NCBI RefSeq assembly: GCF_004363805.1
Contig: NZ_SNZP01000003.1
Location: 124,001 to 188,000 of the forward strand
Reading direction: 5' to 3'
DNA from: Paludibacterium purpuratum
GTDB taxonomy: Bacteria > Pseudomonadota > Gammaproteobacteria > Burkholderiales > Chromobacteriaceae
Length of the DNA stretch: 64,000 nucleotides
Below the pieces are notes generated by a model, which did not search any database, was not told the DNA's origin, and saw only the letters and a program-made list of their open reading frames with translations. Below, in pieces: positions 8,895-13,300 of the stretch (positions are counted from its first letter, which is position 1; each line of letters begins with the position of its first letter). A program made the position numbers and the translations under genes.

Positions 8895-10274
8895 CTAGCC
8901 GATGGCCCGCACCTGAACCCCATCGGCACCATCCTCGACAGTGAAACCGCGTGTGGCGAGTTCGTTGCGCAAAGCGTCGGCCTCGGCCCACTGCTTGGCC
9001 TGCCGCGCCGCCTGGCGCGCGTCGACCAGCGCCTGAATGTCGGCCGGAATGGCTTGTCGGCAGGGGCGCCAATGTTCGAGCCCCAGTCCGAGTACGCGAT
9101 CACAGTGGCGCAGCGTGGCTTTCTTGTCGGCATCGGCCAGGGGTTGCTTGACGAGGCCCCAAACCAGCGCCAAGGCGCGCGCGGTATTCAAGTCCTGATT
9201 GATTTCGCGCGTGAAGGCGTCGACGAAATCTTGATCGATTCGTCCACCGTCCGGCCAGGACGCATAGGCGGTGCGCAAGCGGGAGAGCGCCTGCGCCGCA
9301 CCATCGAGCGCAGCCCAGCCGAAGGTCATTTGCTTGCGGTAGTGGGCGGCCAGACACAGATAACGATAGGCGAGCGGATCGTAGCCACGATCGATCAGGG
9401 TCCGCAGGCGTAGAAAGTCGCCGCTCGATTTCGACATCTTGGCATCGTCCAGCTGCAGGAAATAGCCGTGCATCCAGAAATTGGCCGCGCGCGTGCCGTG
9501 GCATGCCTAGCTTTGCGCAATCTCGTTACTGTGATGCACGGCGATGTGATCCTCGCCGCCGCAGTGGATGTCGAACCACGGCGACAGATATTTGGCCGAC
9601 ATGGCCGAGCACTCGATATGCCAGCCGGGGAAGCCGCGTCCCCAGGGGCTGTCCCATTCCATTTGCCGTTTCGCATCGCGCGGGCTGAATTTCCACAACG
9701 CAAAGTCGGTGGCATGGCGCTTCTGGCCTTGTTCGACGCGGATGCCGGCTTGTAGGCCGTCGCGGTCGAGCCGCGCCAGGTAGCCGTAGTCGTCCTGACG
9801 GCTGGTGTCGAAGTAGATGCCGTCGTCGGTGCGATAGGTGAAGTCCTTTGCCGCCAAGGCGGCGATGAAATCGATCTGCTCGGGAATGTGATCGGTGGCG
9901 CGGCACCACAGTGTCGGGGCCAGCATGCCCAAGGCATCCATATCGTCTTGGAAGGCACGGGTAAACCGTTCCGCCAGCGTCCAGGCCGAAGCGCCGCCTG
10001 CGCGCCGGCTGCCTTTTTCCATTTTGTCCTCGCCGTCGTCGCCATCGGATACCAAGTGGCCGACGTCGGTGATGTTGACGACATGCCGCACGGTATGTCC
10101 GTTGAATTCCAACACTCGCCGCAGTACGTCCTCGAACAGGTAGCTACGCAGATTGCCGATATGGGCGTAGTCGTAGACGGTGGGACCGCAGCAATACAGG
10201 CCGACATGCTCCGCGCGCAAGGGTTCGAAGAGGCGCAAGTCGCGTTGCCAGGTGTCGTACAGATAGAGCTGCAT
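8895..10274 (-). pseudogene. cysS: Cysteinyl-tRNA synthetase interrupted by an in-frame amber codon
   Basis: A 460-codon class I aminoacyl-tRNA synthetase frame charging tRNA-Cys. Codon 256 (9507-9509) is TAG; the frame is otherwise continuous, so this is a nonsense codon and not a frameshift. N-terminal part: [15 protein letters not shown] (Zn Cys and HIGH-type motif), WHIECSAM (Zn Cys) and HHSNEIAQS (Zn His/Glu). After the TAG come ACHGTRAANFWMHGYF, KMSKSSGD (KMSKS loop) and a full C-terminal domain. Most CysRS proteins have Glu at this position (AQSEA), so a single G-to-T change (GAG to TAG) explains it. Start at 10274 has GGAG 6 nt upstream. TAG ends other genes here, so the code is standard. 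It could be a sequencing error, suppressed amber, or a decayed second copy. Confidence 0.9.
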
Positions 10275-10284
10275 GGCTTTCTCC

Positions 10285-10383
10285 AAAAGAAAAAGCCGCC
10301 GGTTGAAGCAACGCGGCGGCCGTGGGCGAGCTGAACGTGTGCGCTAGGCGCGCGACGACCCCGGCCGTGCGGGACAACACGGC
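10285..10383 (-). promoter_or_regulatory. Transcription attenuator in front of cysS (alternative hairpins plus terminator)
   Basis: Reading leftwards: hairpin 1:2 pairs GCCGTG (10383-10378) with CACGGC (10369-10364) and encloses the two Cys codons of the leader ORF. Alternative 2:3 pairs CGGCCGGGG (10367-10359) with CCCACGGCCG (10326-10317, one bulged A). The terminator 3:4 is GCCGCCG (10320-10314), a bulged C, then GTTG-CTT-CAAC and CGGCGGC (10301-10295), followed by TTTTTCTTTT (10294-10285). The T-run abuts GGAG, the cysS ribosome site. Pairing 2:3 overlaps the left terminator arm, so a ribosome stalled on the Cys codons would favour antitermination. The terminator would also end cyd operon transcripts. 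Confidence 0.8.
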
Positions 10384-10421
10384 AGCAGGCGGGCGATCAG
10401 GTTCGGCTGGTTCGATTTCAT
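10344..10421 (-). CDS. Cys-codon leader peptide of cysS
   Basis: A 25-codon ORF running from ATG at 10421 to TAG at 10346-10344. Codons 15 and 16 are TGT TGT (LLPCCPAR), the only Cys codons, placed just inside the loop side of hairpin 1:2. Cys is among the rarest residues, so a Cys-Cys pair in a 25-aa ORF directly before a cysteinyl-tRNA synthetase is hard to explain by chance. There is no Shine-Dalgarno, and the promoter predicts a transcript starting at or next to the ATG, so translation would be leaderless. Its likely role is to sense Cys-tRNA shortage through ribosome stalling. Confidence 0.72.
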   Translation of the reverse strand: MKSNQPNLIARLLPCCPARPGSSRA

Positions 10422-10428
10422 ATTATCG

Positions 10429-10457
10429 ATACTATCGGCGGCGTGGCGGCGGGTCAA
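10429..10457 (-). promoter_or_regulatory. Sigma70-type promoter of the cysS leader
   Basis: TTGACC (10457-10452), a 17-nt spacer, then TAGTAT (10434-10429). The leader ATG begins 7 nt after the -10 element, which places the expected transcription start at about 10421-10423. It begins 4 nt after the cydX stop codon. Confidence 0.6.
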
Positions 10458-10460
10458 CCG

Positions 10461-10574
10461 TCAGGCCACCTCGTCCTCGACATCGTCGTGGTGCAGATTC
10501 TCTTCAATGATCGCGTTGATCACCGCCAACGAAACGGCAAGCGGCAGGCCGAGCATCCAGGCGAAATACCACAT
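10461..10574 (-). CDS. cydX: Cytochrome bd small subunit CydX
   Basis: A 37-aa single-helix membrane peptide that stabilises the haems of cytochrome bd oxidase. It begins MWYFAWMLGLPLAV, the hallmark of CydX/CbdX, with one hydrophobic helix and an acidic tail (EENLHHDDVEDEVA). The ribosome site AAGGAG lies 6 nt before the ATG. It is the last gene of cydP-cydA-cydB-cydX, 12 nt after cydB. Confidence 0.93.
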   Translation of the reverse strand: MWYFAWMLGLPLAVSLAVINAIIEENLHHDDVEDEVA

Positions 10575-10586
10575 GAAGGGCTCCTT

Positions 10587-11723
10587 TCAGTAAGCGGTTT
10601 TCGAGTTCTTGCGCACGGACTCGACCGTGACCGGGCCACGCATGACGCGGTAGCACCAACTGGTGTAGAGCACGATCAACGGTGTGAAGATCACGGCCAC
10701 CCAGAACATGACCGACAGCGTCAGGTGGCTGGATGTGGCATCCCAAACGGTCAGGCTGGCATTGGGGTTGAGGCTCGACGGCAGCAGGAAGGGGAACATG
10801 CTGATGCCCGCCGTGCCGATGATGCCGGCTTGGGTGAAGCTGGAGGCGATGAAGGCCAAGCCGCCGCGGCCGGCCCGCGCCAGTCGGCTGCCGGCCAGCG
10901 CCGCAAGTACGCCGATAGTCGGCACCAGCCATAGCCATGGCCATTGATGGTAATTGGCCATCCAGGCACCGGGCTGGATCGCCACCACCTTGGCCAGCGG
11001 ATTGGACTCGGCCGACGGCAGTGCGCCTGCCAGAATCCGGTAGCCGGGCAATTGGCTGGCCCATACCCCGGCGGCGACGAACAACAAGGCGGCGGCAAGC
11101 CCGGTCAACTCGGCGGCGCGCCGAGCGCGTTGGCGCGGGGCGCCTTCCGTCTTGATGATCAGGAAGGTGGCGCCTTGGAAGGTGATCATTGCGCTGGCGA
11201 CCAGGCCGCACAATAAGGCGAACGGATTAAGCAGCGCCCAGAACGAGCCGGTGTAGCTGGCACGCAAGGTATCGTCGAAAGTGAACGGTACGCCTAGCAG
11301 CAGGTTGCCGAACGCCACGCCGAAGATGAGCGGCGGCACAAAGCCACTGAGGAACAGTGCGCCGTCCCAGGCCCGACGCCAGCCGGCGTAGGGGAGTTTG
11401 CTGCGATAGTCGAAGCCGACCGGGCGCAGGAACAGCGTCCATAGCACCGCCAGCATTGCCCAATAGAAGCCCGAGAAGGCGGTGGCGTAGATGAATGGCC
11501 AGGCGGCGAACATGGCGCCGCCGCCGGTGATGAACCACACTTGGTTGCCGTCCCAGTGCGGGCCGACCGTGTTGAGCAGTACGCGGCGCTCATCGTCGTC
11601 GCGGCCGACCCAGGGCAGTAGCGTGCCGACGCCCAGGTCGTGGCCGTCCATGATGGCGAAACCGATCAACAGCAAGCCGATCAACAGCCACCAGATGATG
11701 CGTAAGGTTGGGTAGTCCAGCAT
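10587..11723 (-). CDS. cydB: Cytochrome bd ubiquinol oxidase subunit II
   Basis: A 378-aa membrane subunit (E. coli CydB is 379 aa) that pairs with CydA to reduce oxygen with ubiquinol in the inner membrane. Seen features: N-terminal GFAIMDGHDLGVGTLLP (conserved acidic proton-channel residues), ERRVLLNTVGPHWDGNQVWFITGGGAMFAAWP, FRALxPxGFDYRSK-type segment LRPVGFDYRSKL, and SMFPFLLPSSLNPNASLTVWDA. About eight to nine helices. The start overlaps the cydA stop by one base (TGATG), so the two are translationally coupled. Confidence 0.97.
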   Translation of the reverse strand: MLDYPTLRIIWWLLIGLLLIGFAIMDGHDLGVGTLLPWVGRDDDERRVLLNTVGPHWDGNQVWFITGGGAMFAAWPFIYATAFSGFYWAMLAVLWTLFLRPVGFDYRSKLPYAGWRRAWDGALFLSGFVPPLIFGVAFGNLLLGVPFTFDDTLRASYTGSFWALLNPFALLCGLVASAMITFQGATFLIIKTEGAPRQRARRAAELTGLAAALLFVAAGVWASQLPGYRILAGALPSAESNPLAKVVAIQPGAWMANYHQWPWLWLVPTIGVLAALAGSRLARAGRGGLAFIASSFTQAGIIGTAGISMFPFLLPSSLNPNASLTVWDATSSHLTLSVMFWVAVIFTPLIVLYTSWCYRVMRGPVTVESVRKNSKTAY

Positions 11724-13300
11724 CAGCGTGCTCCCTCGGTGATGGTGCTGCGCGTCTGCGACTCATGATGGTAGCGGCCGGTGCCAAGGCTGGAGGGGCC
11801 GAGGCGGGCGTACTTGATCATCAGGAACAGCTCGACCACCAGCAAAACGGTATAGAACAGGACGAAACCCGCCAGCGAGCCGGCCACCGCGCCCACGCTG
11901 AGTTGCGAGGTCGAAAGATGGGTCGGCAGCAGGCCGTAGATGGTCCAGGGCTGGCGACCGTACTCGGCCACGAACCAGCCGAGTTCGCAGGCGAGCCACG
12001 GCATTGGAATCCAGCACAGCGCCCAGCGCAACAGCCACTTCTGCTGGGCGAAAGTGTTCTTTAGCGAGCAGAACAGCGCAGCGCTGAACAGTAGCAGGAA
12101 ACTCATACCCAGCCCGACCATGGCGCGGAAACCCCAGAACAGCGGCGCCACGCGCGGGATCGTACTCCAGGCCGCCTGATCGATGATGGCCGGGGTGGCC
12201 TCGCGCACGTCGGCGACATATTTCTTCAGCAGCAGCCCGAAGCCAAGATTGGCCTCATGCTGCTCGAAGGCGGCGCGCAAAGCCGGGTCGTCCGGTGCTT
12301 TGCGCAGCGCTTCGAGCGCGATCACAGCCTCTTGGCCATCGACGATGCGCGCGCGGTTCTTGGCCACGATCTGGTTGATGCCGGGGATTTCTTTGGTGGT
12401 GGAGCGCGTGCCGATCAATCCCATCAGGTAGGGAATCTGCAGTTGGTAGTGGTTGGTGCGCGCCGTTTGGTCGGGCAGGGCGAACACGGTCAGGCCGGCC
12501 GGCGCCGGTTCTGTGTCCCAAATGGCTTCGATGGCGGCCATCTTGGTTTGCTGCGATTCGCTGACGGTGTAGCCGGATTCGTCGCCCAGCACGATCACCG
12601 ACAAGGCGGCGGCGAAGCCGAAGGCGGCGGCGATGCGGAAGCTGCGGCGCGCAAAGGCGATGTCGCGCCCCCGCAGCAGATACCAACTTGAGATGCCCAG
12701 TACGAAACAGGCCGCGGTGACGTAGCCGGCGCTCACGGTATGGACGAACTTGGCCTGAGCGGTCGGGTTGAACACGATTTCCCAGAAGCTGGACAACTCC
12801 ATGCGCATGGTGCGGTAGTTGAAGTGCGCGCCGACCGGATCCTGCATCCAGCCGTTGGCGATCAGAATCCACAGCGCCGACAGGTTGGAGCCGATGGCCA
12901 TCAGCATGGTGACCATCAGGTGCTTGATGCGCGACAGTCGTTCCCAGCCGAAGAAGAACAGGCCGATGAAGGTCGACTCCAGGAAGAAGGCCATCATGCC
13001 TTCGATGGCCAGCGGTGCGCCGAAGATGTCGCCGACGTAGTGCGAGTAGTAGGCCCAGTTGGTACCGAACTGGAACTCCATGGTGATGCCGGTGGTGACG
13101 CCGAGCGCGAAGTTGATGCCGAAAAGCTTGCCCCAGAACCGGGTCATGTCATGGTAGATCTGCTGCTTGGTGATCACATAGACCGACTCCATGATCACCA
13201 GCATGATGCTCAGACCGAGGGTCAGGGGGACGAAAAGAAAGTGATACAGCGCCGTGACGGCGAACTGTAGGCGGGAAAGGTCGACCAGTGTTTCTGTCAT
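11723..13300 (-). CDS. cydA: Cytochrome bd ubiquinol oxidase subunit I
   Basis: A 525-aa haem-bearing subunit. Haem ligands are in place: His in TALYHFLFVPLTLG (about residue 19), His in KFVHTVSAGY (about 186) and Met in FRAMVGLGMSF (about 393). The quinol-binding loop contains the K/E-rich insert of the long Q-loop class (E. coli type), with ESQQTKMAAIEA and the C-terminal GRQPWTIYGLLPT motif also present. High-affinity oxidase for low-oxygen respiration. Start overlaps the upstream cydP stop by 4 nt (ATGA). Confidence 0.97.
   Translation of the reverse strand: MTETLVDLSRLQFAVTALYHFLFVPLTLGLSIMLVIMESVYVITKQQIYHDMTRFWGKLFGINFALGVTTGITMEFQFGTNWAYYSHYVGDIFGAPLAIEGMMAFFLESTFIGLFFFGWERLSRIKHLMVTMLMAIGSNLSALWILIANGWMQDPVGAHFNYRTMRMELSSFWEIVFNPTAQAKFVHTVSAGYVTAACFVLGISSWYLLRGRDIAFARRSFRIAAAFGFAAALSVIVLGDESGYTVSESQQTKMAAIEAIWDTEPAPAGLTVFALPDQTARTNHYQLQIPYLMGLIGTRSTTKEIPGINQIVAKNRARIVDGQEAVIALEALRKAPDDPALRAAFEQHEANLGFGLLLKKYVADVREATPAIIDQAAWSTIPRVAPLFWGFRAMVGLGMSFLLLFSAALFCSLKNTFAQQKWLLRWALCWIPMPWLACELGWFVAEYGRQPWTIYGLLPTHLSTSQLSVGAVAGSLAGFVLFYTVLLVVELFLMIKYARLGPSSLGTGRYHHESQTRSTITEGAR

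Follow-up and report, generated by a model that had tools for sequence, protein, structure and literature searches.

Leader-peptide attenuation is a classical form of regulation for aminoacyl-tRNA synthetase genes, and pheST and the trpS/leuS genes of Streptomyces are among the examples in the account cited (PMC1262725). For cysS, the gene for cysteinyl-tRNA synthetase (CysRS), the sole direct attenuator precedent found in our literature search is uORFC-8-2, a short open reading frame (ORF) for which, as far as the cited description goes, 145 examples before cysS in Rhodobacterales and a predicted attenuation are given (PMC8632094). This search result is a weak negative, with subscription journals thinly covered; the main text of an attenuator survey does not contain the term cysS (PMC2965389). 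In this work, we analyzed a stretch of 64,000 nucleotides (nt) from Paludibacterium purpuratum (contig NZ_SNZP01000003.1, positions 124,001 to 188,000; hereafter the window), in which a short ORF with adjacent Cys codons and a terminator-like hairpin precede a cysS gene. In a sequence-only reading of this DNA, leader-peptide control of cysS in a proteobacterium was not known as described; such control had already been predicted, in Rhodobacterales.

A putative cysteine attenuator upstream of a second cysS

The conserved anatomy of the locus points to ribosome-mediated attenuation of transcription, with charged tRNA-Cys as the signal, as a device conserved across relatives, a reading to which we assign a probability of roughly 0.83. 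All parts lie on the minus strand of the window. The promoter consists of a -35 element TTGACC (10457-10452), a 17-nt spacer, and a -10 element TAGTAT (10434-10429) placed 7 nt before the leader ATG. The leader ORF, MKSNQPNLIARLLPCCPARPGSSRA, has 25 codons (10421-10344; stop codon TAG at 10346-10344), and its codons 15 and 16 are the adjacent Cys codons TGT TGT (10379-10374). These are enclosed by a pause hairpin of arms 1 and 2 (hereafter 1:2; CCGTGT/GCACGG, including one G-U pair; 10382-10377 with 10370-10365). A predicted antiterminator of 9 bp (2:3) would pair 10367-10362 with 10322-10317 and 10361-10359 with 10326-10324, leaving a bulged A at 10323. The intrinsic terminator (3:4; 10321-10294; -19.1 kcal/mol) is followed by a T-rich tail (10294-10285) that abuts the cysS ribosome site GGAG (10284-10281), and the cysS ATG is at 10274. 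Within positions 10000-10900, one promoter-like site was found against 0.2 expected, together with two overlapping terminator-like sites against 0.7 expected. The parts listed in the sequence-only reading, namely, the promoter, the 25-codon ORF with TGT TGT, hairpin 1:2, the 9-bp alternative pairing, the T-run, and the cysS ribosome site, are thus all present. Its GC-rich terminator is present as well, noted there as 11 bp and counted here as 12 pairs with one bulge and one G-U pair.

We infer every step of the proposed mechanism from this conserved anatomy. Transcription would start at or beside the leader ATG, and a ribosome would initiate on the 5' AUG without a Shine-Dalgarno site. When Cys-tRNA is ample, the ribosome would reach the stop codon and cover arm 2, and RNA synthesis would end at the terminator ahead of cysS. 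Under a shortage of Cys-tRNA, a ribosome stalled on TGT TGT would mask arm 1, arm 2 would pair with arm 3, and the polymerase would enter cysS. In the absence of translation, hairpin 1:2 would form and termination would again be the default. Such a switch implies a gene wanted at low Cys-tRNA, and explanations for the retention of a second CysRS by bacteria thereby become testable.

Conservation of the leader and the terminator among relatives

For comparison, 92 loci with this second type of cysS were chosen without regard to the presence of a leader. These are 10 loci from a first scan of relatives (window included), 78 non-duplicates among the 80 top-ranking homologues from named genomes, and four loci from a scan of the family; L050 and L065 (contigs of L013 and L012) and L111 (upstream region of L027) were dropped before counting. 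A leader was defined as an ATG mini-ORF of 8-50 codons that contains adjacent Cys codons and lies at most 300 nt upstream of cysS. Such mini-ORFs were found at 51 of the 92 loci, compared to a mean of 4.7 in shuffled sequences (standard deviation 2.2; maximum 10; 30 shuffles). The runner-up amino acids, as ranked by standard deviations, were Glu (7 versus 2.4) and Trp (4 versus 0.9). Upstream of the housekeeping cysS, the corresponding count was 1/17 with 0.8 expected. The leader peptides diverge widely in sequence while the Cys codons stay.

A hairpin of -10 kcal/mol or lower followed by a T-run was found in 45 of the 51 loci with the Cys ORF and in six of the 41 without it. The controls gave 2/92 for shuffled regions (one shuffle each) and 1/17 for housekeeping cysS. 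At L028 and L082, the detected hairpin overlaps or adjoins the Cys codons. The expectation from the sequence-only reading that the adjacent Cys codons are conserved in relatives is therefore borne out by the excess over shuffles, and this excess together with the 45 terminators supports its proposal of ribosome-mediated attenuation with Cys codons. Three of the six hairpin-positive loci without adjacent Cys codons appear by eye to carry leader variants, with one Cys codon in L078 and L097 and separated Cys codons in L090. By eye, L073 may represent a compact variant in which a short ORF with separated Cys codons spans the terminator hairpin; because the ORF runs through this hairpin, a ribosome stalling on it would itself obstruct the terminator.

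The 5' end of the leader transcript appears to be another shared trait. When the top-scoring promoter ahead of the Cys codons is considered, the ATG follows its -10 element by exactly 7 nt in 31/51 leaders and by 5-9 nt in 41/51. Given this spacing, the RNA is predicted to begin at or beside the AUG, and the leader ORF is probably leaderless. A comparable start is known from Sinorhizobium trpL, for which the attenuator RNA is described in the cited text as beginning at the leader ATG (PMC7298713). Transcripts entering from the cyd genes would lack efficient leader translation and would end at the same terminator.

These cyd genes offer a simpler explanation, namely, that the hairpin simply ends transcription of the cydABX operon and that the mini-ORF arose by chance. 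The hairpin is indeed located downstream of cydX (10574-10461, minus strand), beyond which lie cydB (10587-11723) and cydA (11723-13300), and GC-rich sequence of this kind folds readily (z = -0.08). However, the promoter, the Cys ORF, and the hairpin are kept before this cysS where the upstream sequence is different; cydX is upstream in 3/10 loci displayed (L007-L009, by eye). In addition, the adjacent Cys codons exceed chance about tenfold, and the terminator sits between the cysS promoter and cysS. We consider the operon-terminator explanation highly improbable. The location of the terminator between cyd and cysS, as pointed out in the sequence-only reading, is correct for the window, but the link is local. 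The upstream genes at L031, L035, L037, L040, and L056 resemble, by eye, a cyo-type quinol oxidase operon, such that two different quinol oxidases adjoin the same cysS cassette (cydABX in the window and the cyo type in five loci). As for conserved neighbours in general, the largest 14 clusters listed hold at most seven loci each.

Covariation and folding of the leader RNA

Covariation was evaluated in an alignment of 18 Burkholderia-type leaders (A3; L049 excluded beforehand as too divergent by eye) and in an alignment of 11 leaders of the window's family (A2; L013-L016 excluded beforehand for the same reason). A further alignment, A4, additionally lacks L035, L036, L049, L056, and L113. In A3, both helices have compensatory changes. 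In the pause hairpin 1:2, 6/18 sequences have TGT instead of TGC as a Cys codon, and the partner arm matches this third-base change, such that a C-G pair is replaced by U-A; in the terminator 3:4, an A-U pair is replaced by G-C in 8/18 sequences. The covariation score for 1:2 and 3:4 in this alignment exceeds those of all 500 shuffles and of all slid versions. In the pause hairpin over the Cys codons, 85.7% of cells are paired in A3, where one pair is compensatory, and 95% are paired in A2, where the changes are of the wobble type only. The compensatory changes to which the sequence-only reading had pointed thus exist for 1:2 and 3:4 in the 18 Burkholderia-type leaders but not in the alignment of the window's family, and 2:3 has no significant covariation.

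Duplex strength and folding were evaluated for 43 leaders, i.e., without L028, L082, and the six of the 51 that lack a hairpin of -10 kcal/mol or lower. With the ribosome position imposed as a mask, the mean terminator probability is 0.88 with a stalled ribosome, 0.95 with no ribosome, and 0.97 with the ribosome at the stop codon. Of 42 leaders, 30 have a lower probability with the stalled ribosome than with the ribosome at the stop codon, one has a higher probability, and 11 have the same value to two decimals; L015, which lacks a 'stop' state in this analysis, is outside the 42. The direction of this difference agrees with the expectation for attenuation. In the window, the corresponding values are 0.62 (stall), 0.90 (no ribosome), and 0.97 (stop).

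The putative target gene and its in-frame stop codon

The target is a CysRS gene, as the sequence-only reading had it, but it is not the housekeeping gene. Its N-terminal 255 codons (10274-9507, minus strand) end at an in-frame TAG (9509-9507), and the remainder of the frame (9506-8895, minus strand) is still conserved. Read past this one TAG, the frame scores 394.9 bits against TIGR00435 (cysteine--tRNA ligase; curated cut-off 340), while the two pieces scored separately reach 275.7 and 90.5 bits. A normal cysS located elsewhere in the genome scores 584 bits, and the N-terminal 255 residues of the second CysRS are 40% identical to the normal CysRS of this genome. The cysS in the window is a second, divergent copy distinct from the housekeeping gene. 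Among eight solved sequences, the best-scoring one for the second CysRS, and by sequence its nearest solved relative, is PDB 3SP1, a Borrelia-type CysRS. The idea that it is a low-zinc isozyme arising from the loss of metal ligands found no support; two Cys residues and the HHxNE motif, which we assume from the E. coli enzyme to be the metal ligands, are common to the normal and the second CysRS.

All nine relatives checked (L008-L016) have intact copies. The part of the protein behind the TAG is 75.4% identical to L008 and 70.9% identical to L009, and L008 and L009 share 72.9% identity with each other. Because this part is as conserved as between intact relatives, the stop codon is either recent or a base-calling error. 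As the sequence stands, and barring read-through of the stop, the product under control of the switch is probably truncated. The attenuator of the window may be a relic in front of a pseudogene, a possibility that is compatible with an active attenuator in the family. The in-frame TAG after codon 255 and the presence of a normal cysS elsewhere in the genome fit such a relic, while the intact leader parts and the conservation of the frame behind the TAG, by which any decay would be recent or the base call wrong, speak against it. For this genome, we place the chance of a relic just short of even.

Distribution and probable mobility of the second cysS

A quick tree of 98 CysRS sequences (those of the 92 loci and six housekeeping ones) places the leader-positive sequences in one supported group of 64, which contains 51 with adjacent Cys codons, three variants, and 10 without a leader. 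The tree departs from taxonomy; the group of the window's genus is split, and a Chitinibacteraceae sequence is placed among those of Burkholderiaceae. The second cysS was found in 14 of 61 genomes of the window's family at E ≤ 1e-100, own genome included. Burkholderia and Paraburkholderia also have copies on large plasmids or secondary replicons, and the leader is present at both Burkholderia plasmid copies inspected. Because of these departures from taxonomy, the patchy presence, and the copies on plasmids and secondary replicons, this divergent spare gene has probably moved horizontally between genomes together with its leader.

Two CysRS matches were found in 26/37 leader-positive, 9/38 leader-negative, and 3/3 variant genomes (L027-L106), counts that are uncorrected for relatedness and include draft genomes that may miss genes. 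The leader goes with a spare CysRS, yet it is not confined to spare copies. A strict rule by which the leader occurs only where the CysRS is spare fails, as this CysRS is the only one found in 11/37 leader-positive genomes. In the Undibacterium loci L030, L032, and L076, the leader likewise precedes the sole CysRS gene found.

Additional cysS genes are frequent on plasmids. In a plasmid collection, 620 records match cysS at E ≤ 1e-30, of which 503 are from Klebsiella, and 613 are less than 60% identical to the second type. On a Paracoccus plasmid (L168, 309-4068), cysS is flanked by annotated genes for GTP-binding proteins and an oxidoreductase, and the 49 bases to the upstream gene leave little space for a leader. 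On a Vibrio coralliilyticus plasmid (L153, 2028-27086), a related cysS lies beside a nonribosomal peptide synthetase/polyketide synthase (NRPS/PKS) cluster that includes a serine acetyltransferase, an aminotransferase, and an exporter gene.

Neighbours of this kind bring up the explanation that the leader senses a drug or stress through peptide-specific arrest, in which the Cys codons are merely part of the arrest sequence, and that it thereby turns on a spare synthetase of the resistance type. According to the account cited (PMC9437257), spare synthetases are known that act as isozymes insensitive to an inhibitor, and the Vibrio homologue adjoins the NRPS/PKS cluster. However, no Cys leader was seen at this Vibrio plasmid copy, and an arrest sequence is difficult to reconcile with leader peptides that differ widely while their Cys codons persist. 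This explanation appears very unlikely to us. As a tentative and rather doubtful extension of the attenuator reading, the promoter, the leaderless Cys ORF, the attenuator, and the spare CysRS could form a horizontally moving cassette that serves as an inducible back-up when the housekeeping CysRS fails, e.g., because of a natural inhibitor, with the same type of leader attachable to cysE.

Covariance-model searches and a leader upstream of cysE

The covariance models of Rfam, including T-box and other leaders, gave no match at gathering thresholds in the 64-kb window. We also searched with a model derived from the leader (R1), which has an automatic structure of just 11 pairs and strict filters. 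In the own genome, R1 found one clear copy (82 bits); the next match scored 29 bits (E = 0.001; L155), and no cysS was recognised there by eye. Four of 399 genomes in a sample of the order matched at E ≤ 1e-4, namely, the own genome, two more with the match before a second-type cysS, and one with the match before cysE. These genome counts are lower bounds, with the leader-positive L015 (genome G043) unmatched in the order sample. In a sample of the phylum, 3/398 genomes matched at E ≤ 1e-3, which are the own genome and two whose hairpins are not preceded by a recognisable Cys leader. At L166, the sole short ATG ORF with adjacent Cys codons has these at the T-run, behind the hairpin. Within a set of 26 loci, R1 matched 10 sources at E ≤ 1 and none of the nine housekeeping cysS loci, and it missed the leader-positive loci L015, L016, L058, L094, L100, and L103.

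The match before cysE, which encodes serine acetyltransferase, is from the betaproteobacterial genome G466 (7% contamination), where the leader MNMPSRFFVPCCAQCCRPGPGELVA is followed by a terminator. This Cys-rich leader, with the motif PCCAQCC, is at about 1642-1463 on the minus strand of L164. The cysE of G466 had no match at E ≤ 1e-50 in the other nine genomes of the family. This single case suggests that the same type of switch may also govern cysteine synthesis via cysE.

Strength of the evidence for attenuation

Several results weigh against attenuation as proposed. Folding of the 173-nt region alone is no better than that of shuffles (z = -0.08), and no adjacent-Cys ORF was found in 41 of the 92 relatives, three of which carry the variants described above. 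The three Undibacterium leaders have at least six Cys codons but no strong terminator; control in these may be of another kind. In A3, two of the five measures are not above shuffles (both-side changes, 3 versus 2.5; further pair types, 6 versus 8.0), and the changed cells may reflect few inherited events. In A2, the 1:2 and 3:4 helices hardly vary, and no measure is above shuffles. The antiterminator 2:3 is conserved, with 81% and 90% of cells paired, but has no significant covariation. Its duplex is stronger than those with shuffled arm 2 at p ≤ 0.05 in just seven of the 43 leaders, which include all four gammaproteobacterial ones tested (L094, L100, L103, and L106), and p is 0.587 in the window. 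In favour of this pairing, own combinations of arms 2 and 3 form stronger duplexes than swapped ones (-18.1 versus -16.3; none of 200 swaps equally strong), although base composition may account for part of the difference. Prior to the synthesis of arm 4, the paired share of arm 3 is 0.43 with a stalled ribosome, 0.45 with none, and 0.28 at the stop, such that the stalled and ribosome-free states are not separated. At equilibrium, the terminator dominates nearly all leaders in every ribosome state. With the effect small in most leaders and the terminator winning at equilibrium, switching would have to be kinetic and depend on folding order. The leader also precedes the sole CysRS found in 11/37 genomes, so a spare gene is not essential to it. 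Finally, the target gene is interrupted by the TAG in the P. purpuratum genome, and the present use of the attenuator there is uncertain for this reason.

The faint antiterminator signal and the Undibacterium leaders may instead favour a Cys leader peptide that works by coupled translation, through Rho, or by making the cysS ribosome site inaccessible and not by an intrinsic terminator. Mycobacterial cys-operon Cys leaders are likewise described in the cited account as lacking conserved terminator hairpins (PMC1262725). Such a mechanism leaves the hairpin and T-run before cysS in 45/51 loci unexplained, as well as the compensatory changes in the Burkholderia-type set, and we consider it unlikely. 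In the case for transcription attenuation, the sequence of the window alone is weak evidence in view of its z-score and the p-value of its own 2:3 duplex, and it is the adjacent-Cys ORFs, the hairpins with T-runs, and the covariation in relatives that raise the case above chance.

Relationship to known leader-peptide systems

To judge by the title of a 2020 study by Canestrari, mycobacterial polycysteine leaderless short ORFs reportedly act as cysteine-responsive attenuators. The present leader resembles them, as titled, in being a short ORF with a run of Cys codons and a predicted leaderless start. Streptomyces coelicolor has a spare, indolmycin-resistant tryptophanyl-tRNA synthetase controlled by an attenuator. 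This system is the closest functional parallel to the proposed switch.

The leaders of mycobacterial cys operons differ from the present one in that, in the account cited, they have no conserved terminator hairpins (PMC1262725), whereas here an intrinsic terminator lies before a synthetase gene. With pheST and trpS/leuS, as presented in the same account, the locus shares leader-peptide attenuation of an aminoacyl-tRNA synthetase gene, and the amino acids differ. Sinorhizobium trpL is similar in being a proteobacterial attenuator with an RNA start at the leader ATG (predicted here), and it differs in its Trp codons and its biosynthetic operon according to the cited text (PMC7298713).

There is also a likeness in design to uORFC-8-2, a likeness by description that does not imply homology. 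As far as described, both have a short ORF with tandem Cys codons inside the first stem (usually codons 14 and 15 in uORFC-8-2) and a second stem with a U-run, taken as a terminator, upstream of cysS (PMC8632094). The present leader goes beyond that description in that its start is predicted to be leaderless and a 2:3 pairing is explicitly proposed. Unlike uORFC-8-2, which is described from Rhodobacterales and thus from alphaproteobacteria only, the leaders found here are from beta- and gammaproteobacteria and precede a divergent second cysS. With the proposed attenuator, control of cysS by a leader peptide would reach beyond a single order of alphaproteobacteria to many beta- and some gammaproteobacteria and would be linked to a CysRS that is spare and patchy in its distribution. 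The leader also suggests translation of a short ORF from an RNA that lacks a 5' leader.
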